DNA from: Desulfotignum sp.
GTDB lineage: Bacteria > Desulfobacterota > Desulfobacteria > Desulfobacterales > Desulfobacteraceae
DNA: 23,070 nucleotides
Reading direction: 5' to 3'
Assembly (NCBI GenBank): GCA_011390695.1
Contig: JAABRW010000414.1
Span: 1 to 23,070 of the forward strand
Part shown: positions 5,533-23,009 of the stretch, in pieces
Layout of the letters: each line of letters opens with the position of its first letter
How positions within the stretch are numbered: the stretch's first letter is position 1
Made by a program: the position numbers and the translations under genes
Notes under the pieces: model-generated
Told to the model about the DNA's origin: nothing
The model's input: the letters and a program-made list of their open reading frames with translations, nothing else
Databases searched by the model: none

Positions 5533-6030
5533 ATGAAATTGGTCAAATGGATAGATGAGAATATCGAGTATTGGCTCTGTTTTGTTTTTTATTCATATAT
5601 GGCTGGGATTATTGTTGTTGAGGTCTGCCGCCGGTACTTTTTCGGCGCCAGCAGTTCCTGGGGTGAAGAGACAGCAATTTATGCTTTCATTTGGATGACA
5701 TACTTGGCAGCTGCTCATGGTGTTCACGGCCGAAGGCACCTCTCTGTTGAGGCTTTGCGCCACCGGATGACCCGGACACAAAAATACTATGCGTTTGTAT
5801 TGAGTGATGTTTGTTTTTTTATCTTGTCCGTGACGATAGCTTATTATTCAATGTTTCCGGTGATAGAGAGTATTAAATACGGACACCAAATGTTTGGGGC
5901 GAACCTTCCCTTTGCTCTGGCTACTTCTGCTATTACCACAGGCTGGATTCTGATCTCAATTAGGGTTGTTCAACGGTTTTTTGATACGCTTCAAAGATTT
6001 CGTCTCGGGCGGCCGCTGGTCGAGGATTGA
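5533..6030 (+). CDS. dctQ: TRAP transporter small permease subunit, DctQ family
   Basis: This is the four-helix small membrane subunit that partners DctM. The frame is open from 5452, but the ATG at 5533 has AGGAG five bases upstream and gives 165 residues, the usual DctQ length. The 27 extra residues of the longer version look like non-coding sequence. Four hydrophobic segments can be seen, with the family-like stretch GEETAIYAFIWMTYLAAAHG in the middle followed by HGRRHLSVE. It lies 124 bases after dctP and 66 bases before dctM, in one operon. Confidence 0.88.
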   Translation: MKLVKWIDENIEYWLCFVFYSYMAGIIVVEVCRRYFFGASSSWGEETAIYAFIWMTYLAAAHGVHGRRHLSVEALRHRMTRTQKYYAFVLSDVCFFILSVTIAYYSMFPVIESIKYGHQMFGANLPFALATSAITTGWILISIRVVQRFFDTLQRFRLGRPLVED

Positions 6031-6096
6031 ATATTTCATTTGTTAAGATCGGCGTGATTGTGGCTCAAAGAACCAGTAGATGAAAGGAGAAGAAAA

Positions 6097-7433: not shown

Positions 7434-8612
7434 ATGACGATGGTGACTCAAAATTTTGAATTGTATTTCCCCACAAAGGTTATATTTGGCGTTGGCATAT
7501 CAAAAACTGCCGGTGAAGTCATTCAGTCACTCGGATGCCGAAACGTCCTGGTGGTAACTGATCCAGGCGTAAGTAAGGCAAACTTGCTGGACAGAATCCT
7601 CTCTTCGTTGGAGAAGAATGGTGTCGCTTACACTATCTTTTCAGATGTCGGGCATGAAGCTACTTTGACGAAGGTGCAGGAAGGATTGGATGTTATGCAG
7701 GGTGAACAAAGTGATATCATCCTGAGTGTCGGCGGCGGAAGTGTCATGGACACAGCTAAAGGGATTGGTTGCCTTGCAAACAATCCCGGTAACTTAAGAG
7801 ACTATGAGGGGCCTGAAAAATTCAAGAATCCTCCTGTACCAACGGTTGCAGTTCCCACCACAGCAGGAAGTGGCAGTGAATTAAGTTTTGGAGCTGTAAT
7901 TAATGACACGGAAAAAAATTACAAATTTTCCTTCAGGAGTGCGATGCAGATTCCTAAAGTCGCACTTCTTGACCCTGGGTTGCTGCAGACCACGCCACCG
8001 AAACTTGCGGCTGCAACGGGAATGGATGCACTTTCGCATGGCGTCGAGGCCTATGTATCAAAATGGTCAAACTTCATGACTGACGCTTACTGCAGGCAGA
8101 ATTTTTATCTCGTAGGTAGATATTTAAGGCGTTTTGTTTCTGATCCAACCGACGTTGAAGCGGCATCTGGTATGTTATTGGCGAGCTCTATGGGTTCCAT
8201 GGCCTTCAATATAGCAAGGTTGGGACTTGTGCATGCTATGGGGCATCCTGTTGGGGCGCATTTCCATTGGCCTCATGGGGTGGCTTGTGCAGTGTTGATG
8301 CCTCATGTAATGGAGTTCAACCTTACTGCATGTCCAGATAAGTTTGTGGACATTGCTGTCGGGCTGGAAGGAGCCATACAAGATGGGCCATCTGTGAAAA
8401 AGGCCCAATCAGCGGTCAGTGCAGTTGTGAGGCTTATGGATGATATCGGTATCCAGGCAGATTGTAATTCGTTTGATATCAATGAGAAGTTATTGTCACG
8501 CATTGCTGATGAAACATTGAGTTCTGGCATGCAATTGACAAATCCAAAAGATTGTGACAAAAATGATATATTAAATATACTTCACAAAACCTTTGAGAAT
8601 TGTAATAATTGA
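7434..8612 (+). CDS. Iron-containing alcohol dehydrogenase (group III type)
   Basis: This 392-residue NAD(P)-dependent dehydrogenase oxidises a primary or secondary alcohol to an aldehyde or ketone, or runs in reverse. The nucleotide-binding GGGSVMDTAKG lies at residues 100-110 and PTTAGSGSE at 141-149. The iron ligands are D198, H202, H267 and H281, all present with normal spacing. Two starts are possible, ATG 7434 and ATG 7440; GGAG at 7426-7429 serves either. It is the last gene of the TRAP operon, so it probably acts on the imported compound. Given the sulfonate-type genes opposite, a hydroxyalkane sulfonate (2,3-dihydroxypropanesulfonate or 3-hydroxypropanesulfonate) is a reasonable guess. 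General alcohol or aldehyde metabolism is the alternative. Confidence 0.92.
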   Translation: MTMVTQNFELYFPTKVIFGVGISKTAGEVIQSLGCRNVLVVTDPGVSKANLLDRILSSLEKNGVAYTIFSDVGHEATLTKVQEGLDVMQGEQSDIILSVGGGSVMDTAKGIGCLANNPGNLRDYEGPEKFKNPPVPTVAVPTTAGSGSELSFGAVINDTEKNYKFSFRSAMQIPKVALLDPGLLQTTPPKLAAATGMDALSHGVEAYVSKWSNFMTDAYCRQNFYLVGRYLRRFVSDPTDVEAASGMLLASSMGSMAFNIARLGLVHAMGHPVGAHFHWPHGVACAVLMPHVMEFNLTACPDKFVDIAVGLEGAIQDGPSVKKAQSAVSAVVRLMDDIGIQADCNSFDINEKLLSRIADETLSSGMQLTNPKDCDKNDILNILHKTFENCNN

Positions 8613-8731: not shown

Positions 8732-8928
8732 ACATTGTCACCGTCTGAAAGCACCTGATCAAAGGTAGCCATTTTTTTATTAACAGACAGTGTGCACACT
8801 TGAGTTGTATCGATCATAAGCGTTTTCAGAAGATCATCAACGGTGGTACCTTTCGAAAGATGCACTTCTTCTATTCCCTGATTTCGATTTTTTCCAAGCG
8901 TGGCAAAAAACATGACATTAACTTTCAT
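8701..8928 (-). CDS. MoaD/ThiS-like ubiquitin-fold sulfur carrier
   Basis: This 75-residue protein of the MoaD/ThiS family starts MKVNVMFFATLG and ends in a Gly-Gly-Gly tail. The C-terminal glycines are the site where such proteins are activated as a thiocarboxylate for molybdopterin synthesis. ATG at 8928 is preferred over TTG at 8931. The gene overlaps the end of the aldehyde ferredoxin oxidoreductase gene by 11 bases, so the two are translationally coupled. Small MoaD-like genes often sit beside genes for this oxidoreductase family, which needs a tungsten- or molybdenum-pterin cofactor. The glycine codons lie in a homopolymeric run of eight bases, a likely slippage spot. Confidence 0.85.
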   Translation of the reverse strand: MKVNVMFFATLGKNRNQGIEEVHLSKGTTVDDLLKTLMIDTTQVCTLSVNKKMATFDQVLSDGDNVTITPPIGGG

Positions 8929-10801
8929 CAATCAGCCATTCCAAATTCAAATCCACTAATTTGCCGCGGGTGGGGTTGCCTTCTTTATCCCACCCAGAAA
9001 TCTCATAATAAAGGGCCAAAGCCCCCTGAAATTCATCCGGATCGATATTTTGTTCCTTGAGAGGACCCGTGGGCATGGGTTCATGCCAGCGGCGGATAAT
9101 CCTGTCGTCCTCAGTTTTAAAACCTTCCCGGTTATTGAAAACCCGCGACATTACATTACTACGTTCTGATACCCTCATCATGTCGTACAGGCTGGTATCC
9201 CAACCGGTAATTGCACGTATGGAATCTACCAGCATTTGAAACGTCATGGCGTGAATGGGCACGGAACAAAAATTACAGATACCATAACAGTTGTTGATTT
9301 GCCAGGCCTTTTGGCCGTTGACAAAGAATCTTACTTTCTGCGCGTTTGTATTAAGGGGTTCAATCGGCTCAAAAATTCCAAGGCCATAGAGTTTGCTTAC
9401 ACCGTCACCCTGGAAAGCGACATCATGAGGGGACTCCATATGTTCAGCTCCGGTTGGTGATAAAGCAAATCCCATACCCATTCCGGTCTTTCCCCGGCCA
9501 TCGTGCATAGGCATCTCTTGTCCTTTGATATGGAAGGCATATTTTTCTGCGCCCTTGCCAATAATATCGGCAGCTTTTCGGACACCCTCAGAAAGAATTT
9601 CACCAATGCCGCGGCGGTTTGCAATTTCTTCTATCAACCAGATCATGGCATCGGCATCCCCCCAGTTCAGAGGGCGACCATCTGTATCGTCTTTAGTGAG
9701 TATTCCCTTTTCAAAACACTCAAAAGCAAACGCAATGACTGAACCCGTAGATATTGTATCAAGCCCCAGAAGATTGCAACGCTGATTGCCGTGGGCTACA
9801 GCCGGTAAATTGTCTATACCGCACATCGAACCTAAGCCGGCGATGGTTTCATATTCCGGTCCACCAAAATGCTTGTTCAGAGGATATTTCTCATCCTTCA
9901 AGGAAACCCGGCGTTTACAACGGACTGCACAGGCGTAACATGTACTGTTTGATTCAAATATGGTGTTATGGTAAGTCTCATGATTAATGCTGTCAGCGCC
10001 TTCAAAAACGCCGTCCCGAAAATTGCGTGTAGGAAGAATCCCTGTAACATTAAGACCTTTTACCAGAATCGTGGTTCCAAATTTTGACAGATTAACATTT
10101 GGGGGATGAACTTTGATCCGGTCATTGTGCCATTCACGGATTACCTTAACCATCTGTGGATCAGCCATCTGTAATTTTTTGTGCCCTCTCACCGCGACAG
10201 CTTTGAGATTCTTCGACCCCATGACAGCCCCCATTCCAGTACGGCCGTTAAAGTGTTCCAGATCGTTCTGAACACAGGCATAAGGGACCATCCTCTCACC
10301 CGCTATCCCGATGGAAGCTACCCGGACCATTTTTTCATTGGTTTCATCCCGGATCTTTTCCAGAGTTTTCCAATTGTCCTGTCCCCAAAGCGCACCTGCA
10401 TCACGGATCTCTACTTTGCCATCATTAATATACAGATAGACAGGTTTAGGCGATCGTCCCGTCAACACCACTGCATCGAATCCCGCAAACTTTAATTCCG
10501 GGCCAAAATATCCACCTGCTTCGGTTCTCCCGATTGCCCCGGTCAATGGTGATTTGGCAGCGACCGTATAACGGCTATAGCCTGATAACGGGGCGCCGGT
10601 GACCACACTGCAGGCAAATACCAGGACATTTTCTTTTGAAAGTGGGTTTAAGCCAGGCTTAAGGTATTTGAGCAAATAATAGGCTGCCAGCGCAGTGCCG
10701 CCCACATAGGTCCGATACCAGGTTTCACTGGGTTCTTCAATCTCCCAGCTGCAGTCTGTCAAATTTACATGCAAAATTTTTCCATTATATCCAAACGGCA
10801 T
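8918..10801 (-). CDS. Aldehyde ferredoxin oxidoreductase, tungsten/molybdenum bis-pterin enzyme
   Basis: This 627-residue member of the AOR family oxidises an aldehyde to the carboxylic acid with ferredoxin as electron acceptor. The N-terminal domain begins GYNGKILHVNLT, followed by the pterin-binding region with GRTEAGGYFGPELK near 91-104. The [4Fe-4S] ligands C288, C291 and C295 form the CX2CX3C motif, and the fourth is probably C505 or C509. GPEYETIAGLGS near 314-325 is also typical. The length is normal. The ATG is preceded by AGGTG that belongs to the end of a short upstream frame. Likely substrates are aldehydes from the iron alcohol dehydrogenases nearby; a sulfonated aldehyde would fit the context. 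It would supply low-potential electrons. Confidence 0.93.
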   Translation of the reverse strand: MPFGYNGKILHVNLTDCSWEIEEPSETWYRTYVGGTALAAYYLLKYLKPGLNPLSKENVLVFACSVVTGAPLSGYSRYTVAAKSPLTGAIGRTEAGGYFGPELKFAGFDAVVLTGRSPKPVYLYINDGKVEIRDAGALWGQDNWKTLEKIRDETNEKMVRVASIGIAGERMVPYACVQNDLEHFNGRTGMGAVMGSKNLKAVAVRGHKKLQMADPQMVKVIREWHNDRIKVHPPNVNLSKFGTTILVKGLNVTGILPTRNFRDGVFEGADSINHETYHNTIFESNSTCYACAVRCKRRVSLKDEKYPLNKHFGGPEYETIAGLGSMCGIDNLPAVAHGNQRCNLLGLDTISTGSVIAFAFECFEKGILTKDDTDGRPLNWGDADAMIWLIEEIANRRGIGEILSEGVRKAADIIGKGAEKYAFHIKGQEMPMHDGRGKTGMGMGFALSPTGAEHMESPHDVAFQGDGVSKLYGLGIFEPIEPLNTNAQKVRFFVNGQKAWQINNCYGICNFCSVPIHAMTFQMLVDSIRAITGWDTSLYDMMRVSERSNVMSRVFNNREGFKTEDDRIIRRWHEPMPTGPLKEQNIDPDEFQGALALYYEISGWDKEGNPTRGKLVDLNLEWLIDES

Positions 10802-11186: not shown

Positions 11187-11951
11187 TTACCAAAGAATTC
11201 GAAGTCCGATGAAAAATATGATCAAAAGAATCATTATCCTGAACATTTCCTGAGGTATCCGCTTGTTCAGGTAGTTTCCCACAAAGCCGCCGAGGATGAT
11301 CACCGGTGATAGAGCGGCTACCATGAGCATGACCTGGCTGGTTATGATTTGGATTTTCATGTAGGCCCCGATTTTGAAAAGGTTGGTCAGGGCGAAAAAA
11401 AAGACCAGGGTTCCCACAAAGACCCGGGAACCGGTGTTTTTTTGGAACATGAAAACACTCATCATGAGGCCGCCGGCATGGGCCACGGTGCTGGCAATTC
11501 CTCCCAGAAGCCCGAACAGCATGGTAACCACCGGGCGGCTTTCGGCTTGTTTTGCCGGTCCGGATGCCTGTCTTTCCTTTTTTGGATACCGTTTCCAGGC
11601 GGTTATAATTATGTGTATGGATGAAAAAACCAGGGCAAAAACACCGATGATCTGTTTGAACAGGTGTTCGGGGGTGATGTCTATGAGGTAGCATCCGATG
11701 ATGACACCCAGGGCGGCAAAGGGGAGCAGAAAGGATAATTCTTTTTTATCCCATTCCATCCAGTAATTTTTTACCCCGACGATATCGGAAATCAACATGG
11801 CTGGTGCACCCAGTCCCAGTGCCAGTTTCGGTGGAAGCACCAGAGTAAGAATGGGCAAAAGAAAAATACCGGCACCGACGCCGACGCCGTTCTTGATCAC
11901 ACCTGAACCAAAAACCGCCACGCTGATAATAAGTATGTCAACCGGTGACAT
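11187..11951 (-). CDS. TauE/SafE-family membrane protein, putative sulfite/sulfonate exporter
   Basis: This 254-residue integral membrane protein has about eight hydrophobic helices and the internal repeat of the TauE/SafE family. GSGVIKNGVGVGAGIFLLPI near the N-terminus and a mid-protein GLLGGIASTVAHAGG are typical. Family members are linked to export of sulfite or sulfoacetate in bacteria degrading organosulfonates. Here it lies in the same direction as suyAB, whose product is sulfite, with the hydratase genes between. No strong ribosome binding site is seen before the ATG. About 200 bases separate it from the hydratase gene upstream; they hold only a weak inverted repeat (TTCAGGC at 11997, GCCTGAA at 12017). 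Direction of transport and substrate are inferred. Confidence 0.8.
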   Translation of the reverse strand: MSPVDILIISVAVFGSGVIKNGVGVGAGIFLLPILTLVLPPKLALGLGAPAMLISDIVGVKNYWMEWDKKELSFLLPFAALGVIIGCYLIDITPEHLFKQIIGVFALVFSSIHIIITAWKRYPKKERQASGPAKQAESRPVVTMLFGLLGGIASTVAHAGGLMMSVFMFQKNTGSRVFVGTLVFFFALTNLFKIGAYMKIQIITSQVMLMVAALSPVIILGGFVGNYLNKRIPQEMFRIMILLIIFFIGLRILW

Positions 11952-12150: not shown

Positions 12151-12747
12151 TTATGCTTCGATGCCCAACCGGTGATAAATTTCAGGCAGCCTTTTGCGTG
12201 TTTTTTCCTTGACTTCTTCAAACAGGTGCCTGCCGTGGCTGTCCATGGCCACGGTCAATGGGCCGAAATCTTTGACACGAAATTTGTACAGGGCCTCCGG
12301 ATGGAGATGCTCCCAGTAGACGGCCTCAATTTCCTGTATCTGGAGTGTTTCAAGGGCTGCTGAACCGCCCACGATGGCCAGGTATACTGCGGCATGCTCC
12401 TGCATGGCCTTGAGGCTGCCCTCGTACAGACCACCTTTACCGATAATGGCCTTAACACCGTACTGGCCGATGAGATCAGGTGAGAACCGTTCCATACGGG
12501 TGCTGGTGGTCGTGCCCACGCAGATTTTTTCCCACGTATCTCCAACTTTTTTCAGGCTGGGGGCGGTGTGGATGCAGGGCATTCCTTCAAGACTTACCGG
12601 TGGGGTATGCCCTTGATCGAACATGTAGATCTGGGTCAGGTCCCGGATACCGAACAGGGTTCCGTCAAAGTAAACGATGTCCTCGGCGTGAAGCCCCCTG
12701 ATGACGTCCTCGGAAAAAGGAGTTTGAAGGTGGTGAGTTTTTGCCAT
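12151..12747 (-). CDS. Class I fumarase/tartrate dehydratase-type hydratase, beta subunit
   Basis: This 198-residue small subunit of a two-part [4Fe-4S] hydro-lyase pairs with the alpha subunit encoded 21 bases upstream; AAGGAG lies eight bases before its ATG. The family signature is present as VGTTTSTRMERF near 77-88, IGKGGL near 102-107 and AMDSHG further on. The pattern GDTWEKICVG and the VKDFGPLTVAMDSHG segment resemble TtdB more than FumB-type domains. The segment that usually reads like T-x-R-D-x-A/C-H-K/R-R is GIRDLTQIY here (about 33-41). Arg-Asp is kept, but the histidine and following basic residues are lost. That hints at a different substrate. Fumarate, tartrate and, from context, 3-sulfoacrylate are candidates. 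Confidence 0.85.
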   Translation of the reverse strand: MAKTHHLQTPFSEDVIRGLHAEDIVYFDGTLFGIRDLTQIYMFDQGHTPPVSLEGMPCIHTAPSLKKVGDTWEKICVGTTTSTRMERFSPDLIGQYGVKAIIGKGGLYEGSLKAMQEHAAVYLAIVGGSAALETLQIQEIEAVYWEHLHPEALYKFRVKDFGPLTVAMDSHGRHLFEEVKEKTRKRLPEIYHRLGIEA

Positions 12748-12768
12748 TCGTTGATCTCCTTGTAATGA

Positions 12769-13650
12769 TTAATATCCGTATTCCACGCGGCCGTCAGGGT
12801 ATATTTGGGCCCTGGCACGCCGTGCCGGCCAGCACTGGGTGTTGATGGCAATGGGGTTCTGGGTAATGTGCGTGTGGGCGGTTTCAATGTGGACAGCCAG
12901 TGTGGTGATATCTCCCCCGAGCCCCATGGGACCTCGGCCCATGTCATTGATGGCCTCTTCAAGTTCTTGTTCTAATTTGGCTATCTCAGGATCATGGTGG
13001 CGCTGACCCACTGGACGGGCAATGGCTTCCTTGGCAAGTTTCATGACAAGGTCCGCAGTTCCGCCGAGGCCCACACCGATGATTCCGGGCGGGCAGGGGT
13101 TTGCACCGGTTTCAAAGACCGTGTCGATGACGAATTTTTTGAGTGCTGAAATACCGTGGGCAGGATAGAACATTTTCATTTTGCTCATGTTTTCTGATCC
13201 CGACCCTTTGGGGATCATCAGGATATCCAGATGCTCTGCATCCTCGATGAAATCATAATGTATCACGGGCAGCCCTTCTCCCACCGATGTCTGAGGATTG
13301 ACCCGGGTCAGGGTATGGGTTGAACTCCCCCGAAAAGGAAATTCCTGGGTAGCCCGCCTGGCACCCATATTTAACCGTTTTTTGATCTGAAACCCGTTCC
13401 AGGGAAACCGGGAACCGATTTTCACCATGTAAATAGGAAGGCCCGTGTCTTGGCAGATCAAGGTTTTATGTTCATCCGCCACCTCGATGGTTTTGAAGAT
13501 CGCCTTGAAAACTTCACGGGCCGTGGGATTGGTTTCTTTGTGATAGGCACGTTTCAATGCTTCCCGGACATCCGGCGGCAAGTCGCACAGGGCGCGGATG
13601 TATGTTTCCTTGGCAGCATCTTCAACAATCTGGTAATCAATTTCAGCCAT
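12769..13650 (-). CDS. Class I fumarase/tartrate dehydratase-type hydratase, alpha subunit
   Basis: This 293-residue catalytic subunit carries the [4Fe-4S] cluster that binds the substrate hydroxyl group. The three cluster cysteines are C66 (ICQDTG), C186 (NPCPPGIIGVGLGG) and C273 (NTQCWPARRA), all in the usual contexts. Length and order match stand-alone alpha subunits of the tartrate/fumarate hydratase family. GGAGG seven bases upstream fixes the start at 13650. It follows suyB by 171 bases, in the same direction. The known reaction of the family is reversible hydration of fumarate to L-malate, or dehydration of tartrate. Placement directly after suyAB raises the possibility that it hydrates a sulfonated fumarate analogue to sulfolactate. 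Confidence 0.9.
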   Translation of the reverse strand: MAEIDYQIVEDAAKETYIRALCDLPPDVREALKRAYHKETNPTAREVFKAIFKTIEVADEHKTLICQDTGLPIYMVKIGSRFPWNGFQIKKRLNMGARRATQEFPFRGSSTHTLTRVNPQTSVGEGLPVIHYDFIEDAEHLDILMIPKGSGSENMSKMKMFYPAHGISALKKFVIDTVFETGANPCPPGIIGVGLGGTADLVMKLAKEAIARPVGQRHHDPEIAKLEQELEEAINDMGRGPMGLGGDITTLAVHIETAHTHITQNPIAINTQCWPARRARAQIYPDGRVEYGY

Positions 13651-13707
13651 TATTAGTCCTCCAGAGGATGATATGTCCGATTCCTTTTCTTTTAATGGTG
13701 AGCAGGT

Positions 13708-13745
13708 GTGCCGGCAGAATTGGGTGAAATTCCGTTTGCCGGCAC
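13708..13745. other. Hairpin between suyB and the hydratase alpha gene
   Basis: GTGCCGGCA (13708-13716) is perfectly complementary to TGCCGGCAC (13737-13745). A further 5-bp stem (GAATT 717-721 with AATTC 728-732) lies inside the loop. No T-run follows on the - strand, so it is more likely an mRNA-processing or partial attenuation element than a complete terminator. Confidence 0.4.
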
Positions 13746-13821
13746 GGGCCGCTCATGACACTTCAAAGAACAAGCTTGAAGCGGTCTTTTAAAAAATCGG
13801 CCGTTGCTGTCCCGTTAATGA

Positions 13822-14985
13822 TTATGCACTCTCATACAGTTTGGTTAAAACATACTCTTCATGTCCCAGCACTTCCTGAGCGGTCAGCCGGCCGTTGCAT
13901 GTGCGGATCAGCAGCCCGAGCAAATTGATCCCTGATTCGTCCAGGGTCATTTCTCCCCGCAGGATGGCGGAACAATCATAGTCTATGTGTTCGGACATGT
14001 CACTGGCTGTCCGCGGATTGGCCGTCAATTTGATCACCGGTTCGATGGGGTTGCCGATGATATTGCCCTGACCGGTGGGGAAAAAATGGGCCACAAATCC
14101 GGCAGCTGCCCAGAGGGTCACAGCTTCAGCCGCAGCGCTGGAAGAATCCATATACCACAGTCCGGGACCGGTGGGGGTAACGGCTTTATCCAAAGCGCCT
14201 TCATAATTGATGGTTTTGCCGATTTTCTGGACATTGCCGAAGGCTTTTTCTTCGATGGTGGTCAATCCGCCGGCAATGTTTCCCTTGGTGGGCTGGCTTC
14301 CGGAAAGGTCATCGGTTTTGTTCCGGTCGATCATGGCCGCATACCGGTCAAAAAAGTACGTGAACTGTTCGGCTGCTTCCGGGGTTTTGGCCCGCTGTTT
14401 CACCGTGTCTTCCGCCCCGGTGATTTCACTGGTTTCGCCAAAAGAGCAGGTGCCGCCTATAGTAACCAGTTTTTCAAAGGCATTGCCGACACTGGGGTTG
14501 GATGCCAGGCCGGAGGTGGTGTCGGATTCTCCGCATTTGGTGGACACCCAGATTTCGCTCAGGTCGCAGGGTTCTCTTTTGAGCTCGCTGGCCCAGTGCA
14601 CATATTCCTTGGCTTTCCATGAAGCCATTTCAACGGTTTTGATATCCCCATGGCGCTCAATGGCAAAACCACTCACTGGTTTGCCTGTTTTGGCAATTCC
14701 TTCGACAACGCGGTTGGTCCATTCCGGTTCGATCCCGATGACCACAACAGCTGCTACATTGGGATTGGCGCCGGTACCGATCAGGGTTCGAAAAAACAGC
14801 TCCAGATCTTCACCGAACTGAAGCCGGCCATAGGCATGAGGCAGGGCTTTGCAGCCCTTGATGTTGTGGGCCACATTTTCACTGGCGGCATTGCTCAGAT
14901 CATCCAAAGGAAGGATGATGACGTGATTCCGGATGCCGACGCGGCCGTTTTCACGGCGATATGCCATAACGGTAGGGTTCTCCAT
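13822..14985 (-). CDS. suyB: (2R)-sulfolactate sulfo-lyase, large subunit SuyB (UxaA family)
   Basis: SuyAB cleaves the C-S bond of (2R)-3-sulfolactate to give pyruvate and sulfite. This protein begins [20 protein letters not shown] and continues with [47 protein letters not shown] and [19 protein letters not shown]. These match my recollection of SuyB more closely than altronate or galactarate dehydratases, which are about 500 residues and usually include the SAF domain. ATG 14985 is chosen over GTG 14994 because AAGGAGG lies eight bases before it. It gives 387 residues and starts two bases after the suyA stop. Altronate dehydratase-like activity is the main alternative. Confidence 0.85.
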
Positions 14986-14987
14986 GA

Positions 14988-15266
14988 TTACCACCTCCTT
15001 GTTTTCAAATTGTGAATATGAACATGTTGGCCTTTTTTGATGGGCTCAGATACCCGTCCGATATCTGCACCATATTTTATGACGGACGCGTCTGTTTCAT
15101 GGTCTTGTATAGCAATTTTATGTCCCAGGGGAATATCCTGAGAGACTGTTACTTCCAGCTGTTTTTGGTTGTCCATGAAAAGTCCTTGGACCGTTTCGCC
15201 AGAATTGATTGGAACCGTTGCGACACCAACTGTATCCAATTTTTCGTGAATTAGAAATTGAATCAT
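14988..15266 (-). CDS. suyA: (2R)-sulfolactate sulfo-lyase, small subunit SuyA (SAF domain)
   Basis: This 92-residue single SAF-domain protein is the small partner of the UxaA-family enzyme encoded next. SAF features include the VHIHNLKT end and the repeated IPLGHKIAI / IKKGQHVHI pattern. The frame is open from an ATG at 15281, but that codon lacks a ribosome binding site. The ATG at 15264-15266 has GGAGG eight bases upstream. The stop is followed two bases later by the suyB start. It lies 107 bases downstream of the cytochrome b-c gene on the same strand. Confidence 0.83.
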
Positions 15267-15373
15267 GCTGCTTTCCTCCATTGATAATGATGACTATTTA
15301 CGGTTATTTGTCGGCCGGTCCGCATCCGAAAATATGCGTTAGGCCATAAAAATATTTTAAAGTCTTTGTTCGT

Positions 15374-16804
15374 TTAATCAGTACCGTTCAAAACGGGTGT
15401 CATCGGCATAATATCATCCTTCTTAATGGTGCGTGGTTTGTTCTTCTTGAAATCTAAAGCCAGAATAAAATCGCTTAAGTCTAAGAGTTCATTTTCCTGG
15501 AGAGCGTATTTGGGCATAATGGAAAACCGGCTCTGGGATTGAGGGTCTTTGATAAACGCCGTCAAAAACTCCCGGGTTCGACCTTTGGCCTTCATATTTG
15601 AAAGGTCTGGCCCTATCCTGCGGCCACCCTTTCCCATGATGTTATGGCAGTAGGCGCATTCTTGTTGTGCATATATTCGGAGGCCATGGTTTTCCGTCCT
15701 GGACAGGGTCCGGTCAGGAATCACGAATGTGTTACCGTAGCTTAGCGTCCCGGCAAATCCGGTCACGGTCAGATAGACAATACCGACAACGACGGTAACG
15801 CCAGCTGAGACAGCCAGGGGCCGGTTGACGCTGCCGATAAATTTTGATTTTTCGATGAACGGCAGGGCGAACAAGAGCATTACACCAAGGGCTGGAATCA
15901 CTAAGCTGCCGATCACCTCGGTGGAACCTGAAAAATAAGTGAGGAGCTGGAAGAGCCACATGTAATACCATTCTGGGCGGGGCAGATAACTTTCATCAAT
16001 GGTTCGTGCAATTTCTTCCCTGGGGATTTCCCCAAAGAGGGACAAGAGGAGAATAATGCATAAAACTACCAGGAATACCAGTGAGCTTCGGGCCATGTGT
16101 TCAGGAAAAAATCTGTATATCCGGTTTGCTTTTCCGGAAGAATCAGCAGGCTTTGACGATTCATGCTCGCATACGCCGTGGAGGCGGACAAGATAGATGT
16201 GTCCGGCGATCAGCATCAGCATCAAGGAAGGCAGGACCAGCATATGAATCGCATAGAAACGGGTGATGGTAAAACCGGAAATGTCATCGCCGGACAACAA
16301 CAGGTTGGTGATTAACGGTCCGATCACCGGAAGGTCCTTGGGGATGTTCGCGCTGACAACAGTTGCCCAGAAGGCTTTCTGGTCCCATGGCAAAAGGTAG
16401 CCGGTAAAACCCAGACCAAGGGTAATCAGGAGCAGGCAAACACCGAAAATCCATGTCAGTTCCCGGGGTGCTTTAAAGGAACCAGAAAAGAAGACTGCAA
16501 TCAGATGCAAGAAGACCGCCAAGACCATGGCTCCGGCACCCCAGTGATGAAATCCCCGCAGAAGTGAGCCTGCGGGAACCTCGTTCATGATGTAGTCAAT
16601 AGAGGCGTATGCCTTGTCCGGAGATGGGTTGTAATACATGGCAAGGAACATCCCGGTCACTGCCATGAGGCCGAACAGGAGAACACACAGGCTGCCCAGG
16701 GTCGCGGACCAGCCTAAGTTCGATGGCAGTTTTTTATCAAGAAAGGGTTTCAGGTGAACTTCCCAGCCAATTCGTTGAGATATGATTTTGCTGAATTTTG
16801 ACAT
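15374..16804 (-). CDS. Cytochrome b (b6-type plus subunit-IV region) fused to a C-terminal cytochrome c
   Basis: This 476-residue quinol-oxidising subunit of a bc-type complex carries an N-terminal four-helix haem-b domain. It has H86/H87 and H100 in one helix and H187 and H202 in another, the spacing of cytochrome b6. The quinol-site motif PEWY is at 277-280, followed by three more helices. A C-terminal domain carries a haem-c motif CAYCH (383-387) and a likely axial methionine M430 in SIMPKY. Full-length cytochrome b and a monohaem cytochrome c are thus in one chain. Its start codon is one base after the stop of the SdhB-Rieske gene, so the two are translationally coupled. It is the natural partner of that gene's Rieske domain. 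Confidence 0.9.
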   Translation of the reverse strand: MSKFSKIISQRIGWEVHLKPFLDKKLPSNLGWSATLGSLCVLLFGLMAVTGMFLAMYYNPSPDKAYASIDYIMNEVPAGSLLRGFHHWGAGAMVLAVFLHLIAVFFSGSFKAPRELTWIFGVCLLLITLGLGFTGYLLPWDQKAFWATVVSANIPKDLPVIGPLITNLLLSGDDISGFTITRFYAIHMLVLPSLMLMLIAGHIYLVRLHGVCEHESSKPADSSGKANRIYRFFPEHMARSSLVFLVVLCIILLLSLFGEIPREEIARTIDESYLPRPEWYYMWLFQLLTYFSGSTEVIGSLVIPALGVMLLFALPFIEKSKFIGSVNRPLAVSAGVTVVVGIVYLTVTGFAGTLSYGNTFVIPDRTLSRTENHGLRIYAQQECAYCHNIMGKGGRRIGPDLSNMKAKGRTREFLTAFIKDPQSQSRFSIMPKYALQENELLDLSDFILALDFKKNKPRTIKKDDIMPMTPVLNGTD

Positions 16805-16805
16805 A

Positions 16806-18182
16806 TTACACCATTGCTATAAGAAGGTTTCCGCTCTCGACCTTGAACGCCATATGATCCAGCGGGCGTGGGGGAGGTCCGGCCATGACAGTGCCGTCAA
16901 GTGCAAATGCCCCGCCGTGGCAGGCGCACAGAAACATATTCTGGGTAGCATCCCAATGGACGGTGCATCCGAGATGGGTGCAGGTGCTGTTGTAAACAAT
17001 GATTTTATTCTGGTTGGGCAGACGCCATACAAGGACCGGCTTTACAAGTTCCTGACTATAAATACCGATATTTTCAGTATATCTCAGGTTCACCGTTGAC
17101 ACCTGACCAACAGGAAATTTTTCAATACTGCCGGCAGGCACCCACAGGGGTGGTTTTTTCTGCATAGCAGGCCCGACAAAGGATGCAGCCAATACCCCCC
17201 CCACGGTCAAGGCCGAAACGGCACCGATGCCCATGGTTAAGCCGACAAGAAAATTTCGCCGACTCCTGTTTCTGGCCTCCATGGCTTCAACATTTATGGG
17301 AGGCGTGTTTTCATGTCTGCACCGGATGGTGTTCTGTTCCAAAACCATGGCAGGTGTCGGGATAACCGGCGAGGTGCCAGGAGCCGTGTCCATAATGATG
17401 GTTTCTGGTTCCGGAGAACTTTCAACATCCTGGATGGGTTTGGGTTTTGCAGTCGATTTGAACGGTTCCTTTATGGCCAAACGCTGAATGTATTTGATGG
17501 CCCTTGTGCAGCTGATGTCCTTGGGGCAGACTTCGGTGCAGTTGAATTCAGTGCGGCAGTTGTAACAGGATTGAAGGACCTTATCCATCCGTTTTTCATA
17601 CAAAGCGTCCCGGCTGTCCATCAGCAGGGTGAATGCACGGTTCAGCGGGGCTGGTCCGGCATAATCTTTATGGTAGTTGGCCATGGTGCAGCTGGAAACG
17701 CAGCACCCGCAGGCAATGCATTCGGTGGCAAGGCCGATAGCCAGGCGCTCCTTGGAATCTGGCCGGATGATGGCTGGTTCGTCCATGATCTTACTGGGTT
17801 CGAAAAAAGGCAGGCATTCCTCATAATGCTTGAAAAATGGGCCCATGTCCACCACCAGATCCTTCACTACAGGGAAGTGGTTTAACGGCCGGATTGTGAT
17901 GCCCTGGTTGGCTGGAAAGTCGGATACATTGGTTTTGCATGCAAGGCCTTCCCGGCCGTTGATAACCATGCCGCACGAGCCACACATGTTGACTCGGCAG
18001 GCATAGCGAAAGGAAAGGGTTGAATCCTGTTCTTTCTGCAGTCGGATCAAGACATCCAGGATGGTGGTGTTGGTTTCATCTTCTATGGAAAGATCGAAAT
18101 GATCAAAGTGCCCTTCTCCGCCCTGTGTCGGATCATATCGAAATATGTCTATTTTACGGGTAGTCCCTTTTTTAGTCTTCAT
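16806..18182 (-). CDS. Fusion of SdhB/FrdB-type iron-sulfur protein with a Rieske protein
   Basis: One continuous 458-residue frame holds two proteins that are normally separate. Residues 1-240 are a complex-II iron-sulfur subunit. Its [2Fe-2S] ligands are C62, C67, C70 and C82. The second-domain cysteines are C155, C158, C161 and C165, with C209, C215 and C219-P220. Residues 241-305 are a Pro/Glu/Thr-rich linker. A twin-arginine-like RSRRNFL (306-312) leads into one membrane helix (about 311-333). Residues 345-458 are a Rieske domain with CTHLGC (401-406) and CACHGG (419-424). The predicted topology puts the SdhB part in the cytoplasm and the Rieske part outside. Extra cysteines C160 and C206 flank the cluster motifs. 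AAGGA precedes the ATG. Confidence 0.92.
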   Translation of the reverse strand: MKTKKGTTRKIDIFRYDPTQGGEGHFDHFDLSIEDETNTTILDVLIRLQKEQDSTLSFRYACRVNMCGSCGMVINGREGLACKTNVSDFPANQGITIRPLNHFPVVKDLVVDMGPFFKHYEECLPFFEPSKIMDEPAIIRPDSKERLAIGLATECIACGCCVSSCTMANYHKDYAGPAPLNRAFTLLMDSRDALYEKRMDKVLQSCYNCRTEFNCTEVCPKDISCTRAIKYIQRLAIKEPFKSTAKPKPIQDVESSPEPETIIMDTAPGTSPVIPTPAMVLEQNTIRCRHENTPPINVEAMEARNRSRRNFLVGLTMGIGAVSALTVGGVLAASFVGPAMQKKPPLWVPAGSIEKFPVGQVSTVNLRYTENIGIYSQELVKPVLVWRLPNQNKIIVYNSTCTHLGCTVHWDATQNMFLCACHGGAFALDGTVMAGPPPRPLDHMAFKVESGNLLIAMV

Positions 18183-18222
18183 GAGATATTTCCTTGTTCT
18201 TTTTTGTGCTCACTCAGAAACA

Positions 18223-18564
18223 TTAATAGATGGATTGCCAGATCAGTATCATCACCACCAGTCCCAACCCGGTTAGGCTCCAGATCAAAGCTCGCTGGTA
18301 TTTGACGTTCACCAGGTTAAAGTCCAAGAGGATCACGCGAAGCCCCAGGGTGGCATGAAATGTAACGGACAGGAGCAGCAGAAACTGAAGCCAGGGTTTA
18401 TAAGTCAGGGTGATGTGGAGTGTTAGAAAAAATACGATGGCAAGGGCTGAAATACGCTGCCACATCCATGCCCACATTCCCACGAACATGTTTCTGCGTC
18501 TATTCGGATCGAACTCTCCCCACTGCAGGGGGTTTCTATATTTGATGCTCATCTTGTCTTCCAT
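18223..18564 (-). CDS. Membrane anchor of the SdhA-like complex, SdhC/SdhD-type cytochrome b
   Basis: This short three-helix protein has WMWQRISALAIVFFLTLHI and FHATLGLRVILLDF, the paired signatures of complex-II anchors. The two histidines (LHI and FHATLG) are the likely haem-b ligands. Only one anchor gene is present rather than separate sdhC and sdhD. The frame is open to 18639, which would overlap the flavoprotein gene by 22 bases. The ATG at 18562-18564 has AAAGGGG about eight bases upstream and gives 113 residues starting MEDKMSIKYRN, so it is preferred. It links the flavoprotein and iron-sulfur subunits to the membrane quinone pool. Confidence 0.82.
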   Translation of the reverse strand: MEDKMSIKYRNPLQWGEFDPNRRRNMFVGMWAWMWQRISALAIVFFLTLHITLTYKPWLQFLLLLSVTFHATLGLRVILLDFNLVNVKYQRALIWSLTGLGLVVMILIWQSIY

Positions 18565-18617
18565 TTGTCGGGCCCCTTTATTATGCTGTATGAATAGTTG
18601 TTGGTTGGAATCAGATT

Positions 18618-20345
18618 TCATTTCTTGTAAATTTGACATTCCCGGAGAGATTTATACATGAAATCAACCGGTTCAGTGAAAAGAGACGGCCTGGCGTCGG
18701 CGCCGCGGGTCAGAAAGCTGTTAAAAAGGCCGTTGTCGTCATCCTGTTCCGGAAAGTCGCTGCGGTAATGGGCTGCCCTGGATTCCTTTCGGGCCATCGC
18801 CGAAGCGACTACCATGTCTGAGACATCCAGCATGTTTAGAAAGTCGATGTAGGTATTCCATGGCATGTTGTAGACTCTGGTGCCGGAGACCCGCAGCGAT
18901 TTTGCCTCTTCACGAATGGCGTCAATTGTCTTCAGGGCACTGGTCATGTCTTTGGCGTTACGGACGACGCCCACATTGTTCCAGTTGCACTCCTGGAGTT
19001 CAGCGCGTAGCATAAAGGTTTCTTCTTTACCTTTGCGGCCAAAGGGAGCCAGGTACTTTGCCATTAGTTGATCCACCATTTCAGGGGCTGTGTCTGGCAG
19101 TGATGTGCCATTTTCGGCCATGAACCGTGCCAAAGCTTTGCCTGCCTGTCTACCGTATACACTGGATTCGCAGATACCGTTACCACCTAAGCGGTTACCG
19201 CCGTGAACCCCACCGCCATCTTCACCGGCAACAAAGAGCCGGTCCAAGGATGTCAGGCAGTCCCTGTTGATACGGGCACCACCCATGACAAAATGTGCCG
19301 ACGGGGAAACTGGTACAGGGCTGCGGGATAGATCATAACCGAACTGGGCGCAGCGACTGCACATGCCGGGAAAATTTTTTAGGACAAATTCAGCCCCCAG
19401 GTGTCCGGCATCGATTCGGACACCACCTTCTTCACACTGGCGGCCGGCCATCATTTCTAAGTAGGAAGAGCGGCTGACCACGTCCCTTGTTGCCCGTTCT
19501 GCTACATCTGGTGCATAATGTTTCATGTAGCGATCACCGTTGCCGTTGTAGAGATATGCACCGGATCCCCTGAGACCTTCTTCCAAAAGGGAGCCTGCAA
19601 CAACGCTGCCATCAATGATCAGGCCAGTGGGATGAAACTGGATCATTTCCATATCCCGCATGACTGTACCCGCCCGATAGAGCATGCCTAAGCCGTCAAC
19701 GGATTTTTCAGGCCCGGGAGCGTGGAAGCGATACTGGGTCGGGCCGCCGCCGGAAGCAACCAAGGTTGCCGATGCTTCGGCTCGGATGAAATTGCCATGC
19801 TTCATGTTCAGGATCAGGGCACCCGTGACTTGATTACCGGATTTATCCTTGAGGAGATCTACGGCACGACATTCTTCCAGCACCCGTATTTTTCTTTTCA
19901 TGACCTGTTCGGTCATTCGGCTGATCATTTCAATTCCAGTCAGGTCGCCCTTGTGAACAGTGCGGTCAAAGGATTGTCCTGCAAATGGTTTCTGATGAAC
20001 GGTGCCGTCTGGGTTGCGATCAAAAAAACACCCGAACCGGGTCTCCATCTCTTTGATGGTGGGGGTGGCTTGTTCAACAAGAGTCCTGGCCAAATCTTGG
20101 TCATTGATGTACTGGCCACCTTTAAGGGTATCCATGAGATGCTTTTCATGGGAGTCGGCCTCATTCAATACAACATTAAACCCGCCTTGAACCATTCTGC
20201 TGCAGCCACCCTTTCCTTTCAGGGCCTTGGTGACAATCAGAATATTTAAGTCGGGGTTTTTGTCATGGGCATACAGAGCTGCAAGCTGTCCGGCTGCTCC
20301 CATGCCGATAATTAGAATATCTGACTTTATTGTCTCGGGTATCAT
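18618..20345 (-). CDS. SdhA/FrdA-like flavoprotein, fumarate-reductase/succinate-dehydrogenase family
   Basis: This 575-residue FAD enzyme interconverts a succinate-type single bond and a fumarate-type double bond. The FAD motif GMGAAG is at 14-19. The active-site set H238 (QFHPTG), R287 (TRDVVSRS), H351 (AHFVMGG) and R385 (GGNRLGG) is intact. Two positions differ from classical SdhA/FrdA. The histidine that covalently binds FAD is replaced by C48 in GGCSRMVQGG. The substrate-contacting Thr of the T-E-G-x-R-G motif is a glutamate (EEGLRG, about 255-260). It is first in an operon with its anchor and iron-sulfur subunits, directly behind a sigma-54 promoter. Succinate is the default substrate; 3-sulfopropionate is the context-based alternative. 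Confidence 0.88.
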   Translation of the reverse strand: MIPETIKSDILIIGMGAAGQLAALYAHDKNPDLNILIVTKALKGKGGCSRMVQGGFNVVLNEADSHEKHLMDTLKGGQYINDQDLARTLVEQATPTIKEMETRFGCFFDRNPDGTVHQKPFAGQSFDRTVHKGDLTGIEMISRMTEQVMKRKIRVLEECRAVDLLKDKSGNQVTGALILNMKHGNFIRAEASATLVASGGGPTQYRFHAPGPEKSVDGLGMLYRAGTVMRDMEMIQFHPTGLIIDGSVVAGSLLEEGLRGSGAYLYNGNGDRYMKHYAPDVAERATRDVVSRSSYLEMMAGRQCEEGGVRIDAGHLGAEFVLKNFPGMCSRCAQFGYDLSRSPVPVSPSAHFVMGGARINRDCLTSLDRLFVAGEDGGGVHGGNRLGGNGICESSVYGRQAGKALARFMAENGTSLPDTAPEMVDQLMAKYLAPFGRKGKEETFMLRAELQECNWNNVGVVRNAKDMTSALKTIDAIREEAKSLRVSGTRVYNMPWNTYIDFLNMLDVSDMVVASAMARKESRAAHYRSDFPEQDDDNGLFNSFLTRGADARPSLFTEPVDFMYKSLRECQIYKK

Positions 20346-20393: not shown

Positions 20394-20409
20394 AGCAACA
20401 GGTGTGCCA
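20394..20409 (-). promoter_or_regulatory. Sigma-54 (-24/-12) promoter of the sdhA-like/suy operon
   Basis: On the - strand the sequence is TGGCACACCTGTTGCT. GG and GC are separated by ten bases, and the match to TGGCACG-N4-TTGCT misses one position only. Transcription would begin near 20383, giving a leader of about 38 bases. This is the best promoter match in the window and lies beside a divergent gene for a sigma-54 activator. Confidence 0.82.
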
Positions 20410-20688: not shown

Positions 20689-22251
20689 ATGCACTGGAGC
20701 CTGACGACCAAGTACAAGATCCTCCTGGAAATCAACAATGCTGTGATTTCCAACACATCCAAGGATGATTTTTTCAAGGCGCTGTCAATGGAGCTGAAAA
20801 AGCATTTTTATTATGATCGATTCAGTATTTTTCTTTATAACCAGGAGAATCAGTCCCTCAGATATTTTACGTTAGCTGAAGGTGTGGAGCCGGAAGGGTT
20901 CGCAGCCACTGAGCGGCGTTTGGCAAGCGGTGCGGTTGCCAACATGGTGATTCAGTCCAGAAAACCGATTGTCATTGATGATCTATCTTGTTACTCGGAG
21001 CATCCTTCCATCAGCGCCATGGTAAGGGCTGGCCTGGTGGCAACCATGGCATTTCCCATGATTGTGAGGAATAAGATTATTGGAACCTTTCACCTCTCGT
21101 TCAAGCATCGACCGGATTACCTGTCGGAACTGTCAGAACTCCTGCCGGATGTTTCCAAGCAGATTGCTATCGCCGTAGGCAACATGATCTCGTTTAATCG
21201 ACTGATCAAGGAAAAACATAACCTTGAACAGGAAAAGCAATACCTCCTGAGCGTTTCTGAAGATTACAGACCCGAGAAATTTTTATATGTATCCTCGGCT
21301 ATGGAAGATATCATGAAATTGGTGGAAAAAGTGTCTGGAATCGATTCCCCACTCCTGATCACCGGGGAAACCGGGACCGGAAAAGACTATCTGGCCCGCT
21401 TTATCCATCTGATAAGCCTTCGGAAGGATCACCTCTTTGTCAAGGTAAGCTGCCCGGCCCTGACGCCGTCGCTGTTTGAAAGCGAGCTGTTCGGCCACGC
21501 GAAAGGGGCATTTACCGGTGCCGATTCGACCAGGCTCGGGCGGTTTGAAATGGCGGATCAGGGAACGGTATTTCTGGATGAAATTGCAGAACTTCCCAAT
21601 GCCCTTCAGGCAAAATTCTTACAAGTTCTTCAGGAAAACCGGTTTGAGAGGGTGGGTGACAACCGGTCCGTGAAGGTAAATTTCCGTCTCATTACCGCCA
21701 CAAACCGCGATATTCCCACTTTGATCAGCCAGGGACAATTCCGCCAGGACCTTTATTACCGTCTCAATACCATTCAGATCCACGTGCCTCCGCTCCGCGA
21801 ACGAAAAGAAGATATCCCCTATCTACTGGATAAGATCAATAAGAGTGAGTCTTTTGAGATGAACCACCCCATACCAAGATACACAGATAAGGCGATCCGG
21901 CTTCTGTCAGACTACCACTGGCCCGGTAATATCCGGGAACTCAAAAATCTGATTAAGCGCATGATTATTATAAAGGCTGGTGAAACAATCTCCGTGTCTG
22001 ATCTGGAGAATCTGCTCAGCAGGAAAGAAAACACGTTTGCCATGAAACCCGAAGACAAGGTCTTAAATCACGGTAGAAAGGTTTCCAAGCTGGCAGAATC
22101 AGAGCTTCACTGCATCAAGGGTGCTCTGAAGGAAACAAGGGGCGTTGTCGGCGGGGCGAGCGGGGCCGCCTCTCTGCTGGGGGTTCCCAAATCAACACTC
22201 CAGTACCGTTTGAAAAAATACGAGATTGATCCTGCAGACTACAGAATCTGA
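20689..22251 (+). CDS. Sigma-54-dependent transcriptional activator, GAF-AAA+-HTH
   Basis: This 520-residue enhancer-binding protein has an N-terminal GAF sensor domain (about 5-165) and a short coiled segment. The AAA+ domain has Walker A GETGTGKD near 226-233, GAFTGA near 273-279 and Walker B VFLDEIAEL near 294-302. A Fis-type helix-turn-helix (about 497-516) is at the C-terminus. There is no phosphoreceiver domain, so a small molecule bound by GAF is the likely signal, as in FhlA-type regulators. GGGGAG precedes the ATG. It is divergent from the SdhA-like/Rieske/suy operon, whose promoter is sigma-54 dependent and is preceded by tandem palindromes. It is therefore the probable activator of that operon. 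Confidence 0.93.
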   Translation: MHWSLTTKYKILLEINNAVISNTSKDDFFKALSMELKKHFYYDRFSIFLYNQENQSLRYFTLAEGVEPEGFAATERRLASGAVANMVIQSRKPIVIDDLSCYSEHPSISAMVRAGLVATMAFPMIVRNKIIGTFHLSFKHRPDYLSELSELLPDVSKQIAIAVGNMISFNRLIKEKHNLEQEKQYLLSVSEDYRPEKFLYVSSAMEDIMKLVEKVSGIDSPLLITGETGTGKDYLARFIHLISLRKDHLFVKVSCPALTPSLFESELFGHAKGAFTGADSTRLGRFEMADQGTVFLDEIAELPNALQAKFLQVLQENRFERVGDNRSVKVNFRLITATNRDIPTLISQGQFRQDLYYRLNTIQIHVPPLRERKEDIPYLLDKINKSESFEMNHPIPRYTDKAIRLLSDYHWPGNIRELKNLIKRMIIIKAGETISVSDLENLLSRKENTFAMKPEDKVLNHGRKVSKLAESELHCIKGALKETRGVVGGASGAASLLGVPKSTLQYRLKKYEIDPADYRI

Positions 22252-22370: not shown

Positions 22371-23009
22371 TTAAGCGCTTTTTGTTTCCTGAACATCCTT
22401 TTCCAGGCATCCGGTCCCGGCACTTAGGGCCTCCAGGGCGCTCTGCCGCATGGACCGGGCGATCTCCTCCAGGGAATCCAGGTGTTTTAAAGAATTGCGA
22501 AGAATGCCCAGCCCTTCGGAAAGGGCAAGAATGGTGGCGGCCGCCTTTTCCTTGTCCGGCACGTTGACCAGACCGGCATTTTCCCAGGCGGTGATCTCTT
22601 TGATGCCGAAGGCGATGAATTTTTTCTGCATGGCCTGGATCCGGTCCCGGATATCGGGATTTCTGAACCCCATGGCATAGCAGGACCAGAACACCGCATC
22701 CCGCTGGGGCCCTTTGGAGCTGGTGGAGAACAGGATGTGCATCAGACACTGGAACCGGTCCTCGGGGGTGGTGTGTTTTTCCAGTTCCGCATGATAGGAT
22801 TCCATGGAAATTTTGAACAGATAATCCACCATTTCCATGATCAGGCCTTCCTTGCTCTTGAAATAATGGATCAGCAGCCCGGAGTTGACCCCCATGCGGT
22901 TGGCGATCTTGCCGATGGTCATGCCCATGAACCCTTCATCTTCCACCACTTGATAGGTATGGCGAAGGATTTCGGGTTTCCGGATGTGAGAGATGCTTTT
23001 GCGGCCCAT
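22371..23009 (-). CDS. TetR-family transcriptional regulator
   Basis: This 212-residue repressor-type protein has an N-terminal TetR helix-turn-helix: IRKPEILRHTYQVVEDEGF, then TIGKIANRMGVNSGLLIHYF with the typical HYFKSKEGL end. The C-terminal part is helical and somewhat like BetI-type regulators; the ligand is not evident. An AAAGGA element lies about ten bases before the ATG. It is convergent with the sigma-54 activator gene. The 119-base gap between them holds only weak inverted repeats (GGTTG...CAACC, 22275-22321). Its target may lie beyond the right edge, and nothing connects it firmly to the sulfonate genes. Confidence 0.88.
   Translation of the reverse strand: MGRKSISHIRKPEILRHTYQVVEDEGFMGMTIGKIANRMGVNSGLLIHYFKSKEGLIMEMVDYLFKISMESYHAELEKHTTPEDRFQCLMHILFSTSSKGPQRDAVFWSCYAMGFRNPDIRDRIQAMQKKFIAFGIKEITAWENAGLVNVPDKEKAAATILALSEGLGILRNSLKHLDSLEEIARSMRQSALEALSAGTGCLEKDVQETKSA

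Follow-up and report, generated by a model that had tools for sequence, protein, structure and literature searches.

Eight co-directional genes on the Desulfotignum sp. contig JAABRW010000414.1 (positions 1 to 23,070, the whole stretch of 23,070 nucleotides being referred to below as the window) appear to encode a dedicated route from 3-sulfopropionate to pyruvate and sulfite, a reading to which we assign a probability of roughly 0.78 (Table 1). Along this predicted route, an SdhA-like flavoprotein would oxidize 3-sulfopropionate to (E)-3-sulfoacrylate and pass the electrons through the clusters of its SdhB partner to the membrane, a fumarase-type hydratase would add water to 3-sulfoacrylate to give (2R)-3-sulfolactate, and the sulfo-lyase SuyAB would split (2R)-3-sulfolactate into pyruvate and sulfite. 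The sulfite would then enter dissimilatory sulfite reduction in the host, probably a Desulfobacteraceae-type sulfate reducer, with any surplus leaving through a TauE-type exporter. We infer the substrate, direction, stereochemistry, electron path, regulation and host physiology of this route from what the sequences hold. An initial annotation of the window had proposed that the dehydrogenase, hydratase and sulfo-lyase modules form one desulfonation pathway, and this proposal gains support from genome context in several phyla, co-occurrence within one bacterial family, changes in the substrate pockets, and the presence of other sdh and fum copies in related genomes.

SuyA and SuyB are encoded as separate, adjacent subunits with a SAF and a GD_AH domain, respectively, as in the SuyAB sulfo-lyase. 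Among plasmid-encoded proteins, 13 records matched the window SuyB in the 60-80% identity range (60-67%), and the match listed after them stood at 39%. The best of these matches, from Cupriavidus pinatubonensis, lies beside hpsN and hpsO, and the SuyAB of Paracoccus versutus adjoins a gene of the sulfate-exporter type. The E. coli altronate dehydratase UxaA is 29% identical to the window SuyB, which by these comparisons belongs to the sulfolactate sulfo-lyase clade and not to the altronate/galactarate dehydratases. The window's proteins share the two-subunit SAF plus GD_AH architecture with SuyAB of C. pinatubonensis and Paracoccus (65-67% identity), but unlike the C. pinatubonensis system they would receive sulfolactate from sulfopropionate enzymes and not from dihydroxypropanesulfonate via HpsN/HpsO.

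To characterize the flavoprotein, we aligned 75 family rows (79 minus the fragments L056, L060, L065 and L069) with 17 comparison flavoproteins and numbered residues as in FrdA, the window's C48 and E255 being placed by alignment alone; the phmmer alignment puts a gap opposite Cys48, which lines up with FrdA His44 if residues are counted from the QGG motif. The family groups in a single clade (support 99), separate from the SdhA sequences used for comparison. Residues that we take to be catalytic or carboxylate-binding were retained (H232, R287 and H355 in 75/75 rows, R390 in 74/75 with one gap), from which we expect the dehydrogenation chemistry, and one of the carboxylate sites, to be preserved. 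Two positions of the canonical succinate dehydrogenase (SDH) and fumarate reductase (FRD) have changed throughout the family. T244, which together with H232 presumably contacts the other carboxylate of the substrate, is replaced by Glu in 75/75 family rows (Thr or Ser in 15/17 comparison rows), and the FAD-linking H44 is replaced by Cys, also in 75/75 (His in 13/17 comparison rows). Q119, D122 and H126 are likewise invariant. With Cys invariably standing where complex II has its FAD-linking His, an 8-alpha-S-cysteinyl FAD is possible. The window's proteins resemble complex II in fold family, SdhB clusters, membrane anchor and the four retained substrate-site residues, and depart from it at positions 244 and 44, in the separate clade of the flavoprotein, in the fusion of SdhB to a Rieske domain and in the cytochrome b-c that partners it. 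Among NCBIfam models the best match was the fumarate reductase TfrA, below its cut-off. Public annotations of family members, where a name is given, often read L-aspartate oxidase or fumarate reductase (P0083, P0164, P0250 and others), likely a misannotation.

The hydratase subunits likewise form clades of their own across phyla, and fall into two types, type 1 (the window's) and type 2, with one beta subunit (L068) put into type 2 by the identity cut and into type 1 by the tree. In type-1 alpha subunits the cysteines that we take, from the Leishmania fumarase, to be [4Fe-4S] ligands were nearly always present (C66 in 39/40, C186 in 40/40 and C273 in 39/40 rows, the rest being gaps; FumA numbering). 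The CQD motif and the Arg/Lys positions, presumably substrate contacts, are also kept in the window's type, giving it a likeness to two-subunit class I fumarases and the L-tartrate dehydratase TtdAB; type 2 is without the CQD glutamine, with Ala or Gly in 15/15 rows. Both types differ from class I fumarase and TtdAB, however, in a loop of the beta subunit, where GPTTS has become GTTTSxRMxR in type 1 (38/38) and TATASxRFxK in type 2 (15/16). P79 of this GPTT(S/A) loop is Thr in 38/38 type-1 rows, Ala in 15/16 type-2 rows and Pro in 11/12 comparison rows. The additional positive charge in the loop fits a sulfonate substrate. The stereochemical argument of the initial annotation also stands: by the Cahn-Ingold-Prelog rules (2R)-sulfolactate is the spatial analogue of (S)-malate, so that a fumarase-like enzyme with normal facial selectivity would yield the substrate of SuyAB. 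One pair that we had labelled housekeeping, L106, lies far from the cluster of its genome (G004) on a long branch; it carries the full GTTTSTRMER loop and falls within the cluster clade in both trees, and we read it as a type-1 paralogue.

Scanning genome contigs with two short flavoprotein peptide patterns alone, we recovered 70 loci from Thermodesulfobacteriota, Pseudomonadota, Actinomycetota, Bacillota, Nitrospirota, Acidobacteriota and other phyla, the closest to the window being that of a Desulfotignum metagenome-assembled genome (MAG; flavoprotein 92% identical). Both hydratase subunits were encoded at 44 of these loci, SuyB at 29, both at 20 and at least one at 53; 13 of the 17 loci with neither were cut short (<9 kb) on at least one side. 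Where at least 9 kb was available on each side (26 loci), the corresponding numbers were 19, 13, 10 and 22, with neither at four. The set recurs across phyla with its order shuffled, a variation that speaks for the genes being selected as a group and against mere common descent. In Desulfovibrio cuneatus DSM 11391 (L035) and Desulfoscipio geothermicus DSM 3669 (L062), flavoprotein and FumAB share a cluster and SuyB is encoded at another place in the genome. For the 18-row flavoprotein subclade that includes the window, SuyB was encoded in the genome (or, for the window, in the window itself) of 15 rows. Neighbouring genes included Ldh_2 proteins in 22 loci and D-2-hydroxyacid dehydrogenases in 16, which we take to be the two families of sulfolactate-inverting dehydrogenases; the single Ldh_2 tested had L-sulfolactate dehydrogenase as its best model, below cut-off.

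An association was seen within one Desulfovibrio-type family, that of locus L063 (a Desulfovibrio MAG). In an even sample of 247 of its genomes SuyB was encoded in 11/11 flavoprotein carriers and in 46/236 non-carriers (one-sided Fisher p ~4e-8), in what was a second test, drawn after a phylum-wide sample had given the null result described below and in a group with more carriers. The genome of L056 (G205), which has SuyB and a fragmentary flavoprotein outside the limit, was not counted as a carrier. SuyB lay 0.5-5.1 kb from the flavoprotein in 7 of the 11 carriers and on another contig in 4. The flavoprotein is therefore nested inside the SuyB carriers of the sampled part of this family, as would be expected if it needs SuyAB downstream.

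Related clusters also occur on plasmids of aerobic bacteria. A megablast of the window's cluster against plasmids gave no match; at the protein level, a Hyphomicrobiales flavoprotein matched 14 plasmid records at 60-80% identity, eight of which were examined, seven of them annotated. Both hydratase subunits adjoin the flavoprotein in all seven annotated regions (7/7), and genes for TauE (6/7), sulfate exporters (5/7) and sulfite dehydrogenases or oxidases (3/7) lie nearby, the region of Sulfitobacter S190 having no TauE, sulfate exporter or sulfite dehydrogenase. SuyAB is encoded within the M. oryzae region, whose sulfite dehydrogenase passes the SorA cut-off; in P. versutus it shares a plasmid with the cluster at a distance of ~21 kb. 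The NT-26 plasmid cluster adds a succinate-semialdehyde-type dehydrogenase and TRAP genes 39, 35 and 49% identical to those of the window, and Pseudomonas MPC6 adds a methylmalonate-semialdehyde-type dehydrogenase.

Several observations weigh against a sulfopropionate route. In an even sample of 148 genomes from the phylum of the closest relative, with six flavoprotein carriers and eight SuyB carriers, the two genes were not associated (1/6 versus 7/142, p 0.29), and only the centre genome had both. Four carriers in this sample (G031, G069, G105 and G134) fall in a subclade at 55% identity. Its clusters, where longer contig stretches are seen, add CCG, Fer4 or NarI-like proteins, so that the family of flavoproteins may have more than one function; another carrier, G038 (the genome of L020), has the hydratase and a ComA gene and no SuyB. 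In the route's favour, SuyB was encoded somewhere in 50 of the 69 distinct genomes behind the loci, although comparing this proportion with 7/142 crosses both phyla and E-value limits (1e-80 versus 1e-90); the other 19 genomes show no SuyB, and many of them look like incomplete MAGs. The family signature of the flavoprotein, [ILV][ILM]EEGLRG together with GC[ST]RMVQGG, was found in 75/75 family and 0/17 comparison rows, the conservation of RMVQGG being due in part to its use in the search pattern. Among the hydratase beta subunits, His60 replaces Tyr in 54/54 family members and a basic residue occupies position 87, yet each of these features also occurs in 2 of the 12 comparison beta subunits, L106 being one of these. 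The Glu predicted to face the substrate would be no obvious binder of a sulfonate. Finally, E. coli FrdA is crippled in oxidizing succinate once its FAD-linking His is lost; the loss here would thus point to the reductive direction, unless the Cys takes over as the link.

This last point bears on a reversed route, in which sulfolactate would be converted through sulfoacrylate to 3-sulfopropionate as an electron sink, much like fumarate respiration. The strongest case for such a reduction comes from the uniform replacement of the FAD-linking His, and a Cys-linked FAD would take that case away; the best NCBIfam match to TfrA, the probably anaerobic host and one SuyB-less cluster that holds ComA, phosphosulfolactate synthase, also point in this direction. 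The oxidative direction is favoured instead by SuyAB, which is encoded in the same operon and would destroy the sulfolactate, and by the neighbours of the aerobic relatives, with sulfite dehydrogenases in three and sulfate exporters in five of the seven plasmid regions. A Rieske/cytochrome b-c module would, moreover, better suit electrons leaving the enzyme, and on balance we consider the reversed route unlikely.

Alternatively, the cluster might hold an ordinary C4 module, taking succinate through fumarate to malate, that merely lies next to a SuyAB handling sulfolactate from elsewhere. All folds and catalytic residues are indeed of the SDH and fumarase type, and SuyB occurs without the flavoprotein both in the one family (46/236) and in the phylum sample (7/142). 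Against this stand the separate clades of flavoprotein and hydratase, the invariant change at a substrate-contact position, the nesting of the flavoprotein inside SuyB carriers in the Desulfovibrio-type family, and the other sdh and fum copies in related genomes. On these copies, the initial annotation had stated that the proposal would fail if the cluster held the only sdh and fumarase genes of its genome. We looked for separate housekeeping copies in the genomes of 12 relatives, and in most of them the cluster genes are not alone: a canonical SdhA (His44, Thr/Ser244) was read in 9/12, with a partial copy only in G004 and with G011 outside the check, and a further fumarase candidate was present in 12/12, being a second class I enzyme in 10 and of the class II fumarase/aspartase type in 2 (the class II fumarase model also fits aspartase). 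In G001, the closest relative, L097 was the single additional flavoprotein retrieved; its residue 44 is Asn, and SdhB does not adjoin it. Taken with the pocket changes, these results leave the C4 module very improbable.

The idea that the cluster acts on a different substituted propionate, with the SuyB-lacking subclades in particular using another substrate or desulfonation step, could draw on a second subclade without SuyB and on SuyB-less clusters with genes for a thiamine pyrophosphate (TPP) enzyme, ComA or CoA ligases, but it receives little credence from us, given that 15 of 18 rows in the window's own subclade have SuyB and that SuyAB fixes sulfolactate as the compound to be reached. 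At L110:11011-11820 (a location also covered by L020), the gene for a phosphosulfolactate synthase of the ComA type adjoins the flavoprotein along with CoA-ligase genes, and no SuyB was found in the genome; ComA may give such a genome an alternative at the sulfolactate step. A TPP enzyme (L082:7344-8987 and related loci) is a repeated neighbour of clusters, including some that lack SuyAB, and may represent an alternative sulfopyruvate or sulfoacetaldehyde branch.

In the 3-sulfopropionate route, the electrons withdrawn by the flavoprotein would be received by a pair of membrane-associated proteins. In the SdhB-type subunit the three cluster motifs of SdhB begin at C62, C155 and C209; they are followed by a twin-arginine and hydrophobic stretch (308-340) and the Rieske motifs CTHLGC (401) and CACHGG (419), and the adjoining cytochrome b-c carries PEWY at 277 and a CAYCH haem-c site at 383. 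The SdhB-Rieske fusion was found in the window and 22 relatives (23 loci) and in 0/13 comparison SdhB sequences. Among 25 partner cytochromes, PEWY was present in 21, PDWY in two, PAWY in one distant homologue, and none of these in one truncated sequence. In the 55% subclade (L111-L114) SdhA is adjoined by individual genes for cytochrome b and Rieske, and the annotated plasmid clusters encode two anchors and an SdhB-type subunit of the ordinary 2Fe-2S kind. In L111-L113 we also observed type-1 FumAB (L111 and L112), large open reading frames (ORFs) without a Pfam match (1208 and 896 codons tested), and no SuyB in their genomes. An apparent fusion of cytochrome and hydratase genes in L004 was rejected, as a run of N bridges the two.

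The SdhB-Rieske/cytochrome b-c pair would physically tie the dehydrogenase to a bc-type complex. Since menaquinone lies below succinate-type couples in potential, the bc unit might, as a speculation, push the electrons uphill; a tethered supercomplex is the simpler reading. In its fullest form, which we offer as a doubtful suggestion, the cluster would encode a new respiratory complex, a sulfopropionate dehydrogenase with 8-alpha-S-cysteinyl FAD welded through SdhB-Rieske to the cytochrome b-c, in which a reverse Q-cycle spends proton-motive force to place rather high-potential electrons on menaquinone, and which, together with the dedicated hydratase and SuyAB, turns 3-sulfopropionate into a complete source of sulfite for aerobes as well as anaerobes across many phyla.

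Turning to the layout of the window, ORF and Pfam/NCBIfam analysis agreed with the initial annotation on the eight co-directional genes (12151-20345, minus strand), their outer boundaries and their identities, and a motif search placed one exact sigma-54 site ahead of them. This site, TGGCACACCTGTTGCT, lies ~50 bases before the SdhA start and matches exactly what we take to be the -24/-12 consensus. With one mismatch allowed, the window has two matches against 1.22 expected by chance, so the number of matches is by itself no evidence. Exact sites were present in 7 of 109 loci, and in four of these seven (L002, L003, L014 and L017) one lies directly upstream of the flavoprotein. The Desulfotignum MAG keeps the TetR-type regulator, the activator, all eight genes and TauE, with TRAP genes of its own before TauE, and TauE-like ORFs occur in 17 loci of the flavoprotein family. 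The initial suggestion that aldehyde:ferredoxin oxidoreductase (AOR) and the iron-containing alcohol dehydrogenase feed the route from 3-sulfopropanal or 3-hydroxypropanesulfonate fared less well: neither gene is found on the whole 57.7 kb contig of this closest relative (the rest of its genome was not searched), so that their place in the conserved unit is not supported, and the alcohol dehydrogenase scored far below the cut-off of the NCBIfam sulfoacetaldehyde reductase model. Any feeding role of these two enzymes, like the roles of the regulators, is putative. At the window edge, a DDE_Tnp_1_4 transposase is split over two ORFs (388-1095 and 1139-1837).

Table 1. Positions of the cluster genes, promoter and neighbouring features in the window.
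Feature	Position	Strand	Basis or remark
PAS-sigma54 activator	2032..3771	+	Upstream of TRAP genes
TRAP transporter DctP-DctQ-DctM, possible sulfonate importer	4188..7374	+	Likeness to NT-26 plasmid TRAP genes
Iron-containing alcohol dehydrogenase, putative feeder only	7434..8612	+	ORF annotation
Aldehyde:ferredoxin oxidoreductase (AOR), putative feeder only	8918..10801	-	Pfam/NCBIfam
TauE/SafE-type sulfite/sulfonate exporter	11187..11951	-	Pfam
Hydratase beta subunit (FumB)	12151..12747	-	ORF, Pfam/NCBIfam; substrate loop GTTTSxRMxR
Hydratase alpha subunit (FumA), class I fumarase type, proposed 3-sulfoacrylate hydratase	12769..13650	-	ORF, Pfam/NCBIfam
SuyB, large subunit of (2R)-sulfolactate sulfo-lyase	13822..14994	-	GD_AH; Pfam and plasmid homologues
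SuyA, small subunit of (2R)-sulfolactate sulfo-lyase	14988..15281	-	SAF domain
Cytochrome b fused to cytochrome c domain	15374..16804	-	PEWY, CxxCH
SdhB iron-sulfur subunit fused to membrane-tethered Rieske domain	16806..18182	-	Pfam/NCBIfam, motifs
Membrane anchor, SdhC/D-like	18223..18639	-	Three hydrophobic stretches
SdhA-like flavoprotein, proposed 3-sulfopropionate dehydrogenase	18618..20345	-	C48 at FAD-His position, E255 at FrdA T244 position
Sigma-54 -24/-12 promoter	20394..20409	-	Motif search, exact TGGCAC-N5-TTGCT match
GAF-sigma54 activator, candidate cluster regulator	20689..22251	+	Divergent from cluster
TetR-type regulator	22371..23009	-	Adjoins cluster in closest relative too

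According to Chen 2024, the HpfXYZ route of Enterococcus gilvus makes 3-sulfopropionate from the plant sulfosugar sulfoquinovose, similar genes are noted in gut Firmicutes, and Bilophila wadsworthia is described as respiring 3-sulfopropionate to H2S (PMC11489063). The window's cluster would thus consume the compound that HpfXYZ produces. The paper states that no bacterial degradation of 3-sulfopropionate had previously been reported. For Roseovarius nubinhibens it refers to the Mayer thesis, where sulfoacrylate and sulfolactate are the proposed intermediates, with anaerobes left open (PMC11489063); a 2026 review calls the mechanism of degradation still unclear (PMC12890257). The proposed route runs through the same intermediates, 3-sulfopropionate, sulfoacrylate and sulfolactate. 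While the R. nubinhibens passage names no genes, here the enzymes for dehydrogenation, hydration and sulfolactate cleavage are found encoded together, by family and not by activity, in an anaerobic-type version for which an electron-transfer complex is also proposed. In searches of open PMC papers (subscription journals and theses lying outside this scope), none of the titles and abstract openings listed, nor the passages of these two papers, named genes for the 3-sulfopropionate route or an SdhB-Rieske fusion. Named matches to the flavoprotein include marine Roseobacter-group genera such as Marivita, and neither Bilophila nor Roseovarius nubinhibens was named among the best 120 matches listed in either flavoprotein search, where many matches are nameless.

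If this reading is right, the cluster would provide candidate genes for a step of the sulfur cycle, the degradation of 3-sulfopropionate. The EEGLRG/RMVQGG signature would then let metagenomes be read for the route, and the annotations of the family's flavoproteins would be corrected.

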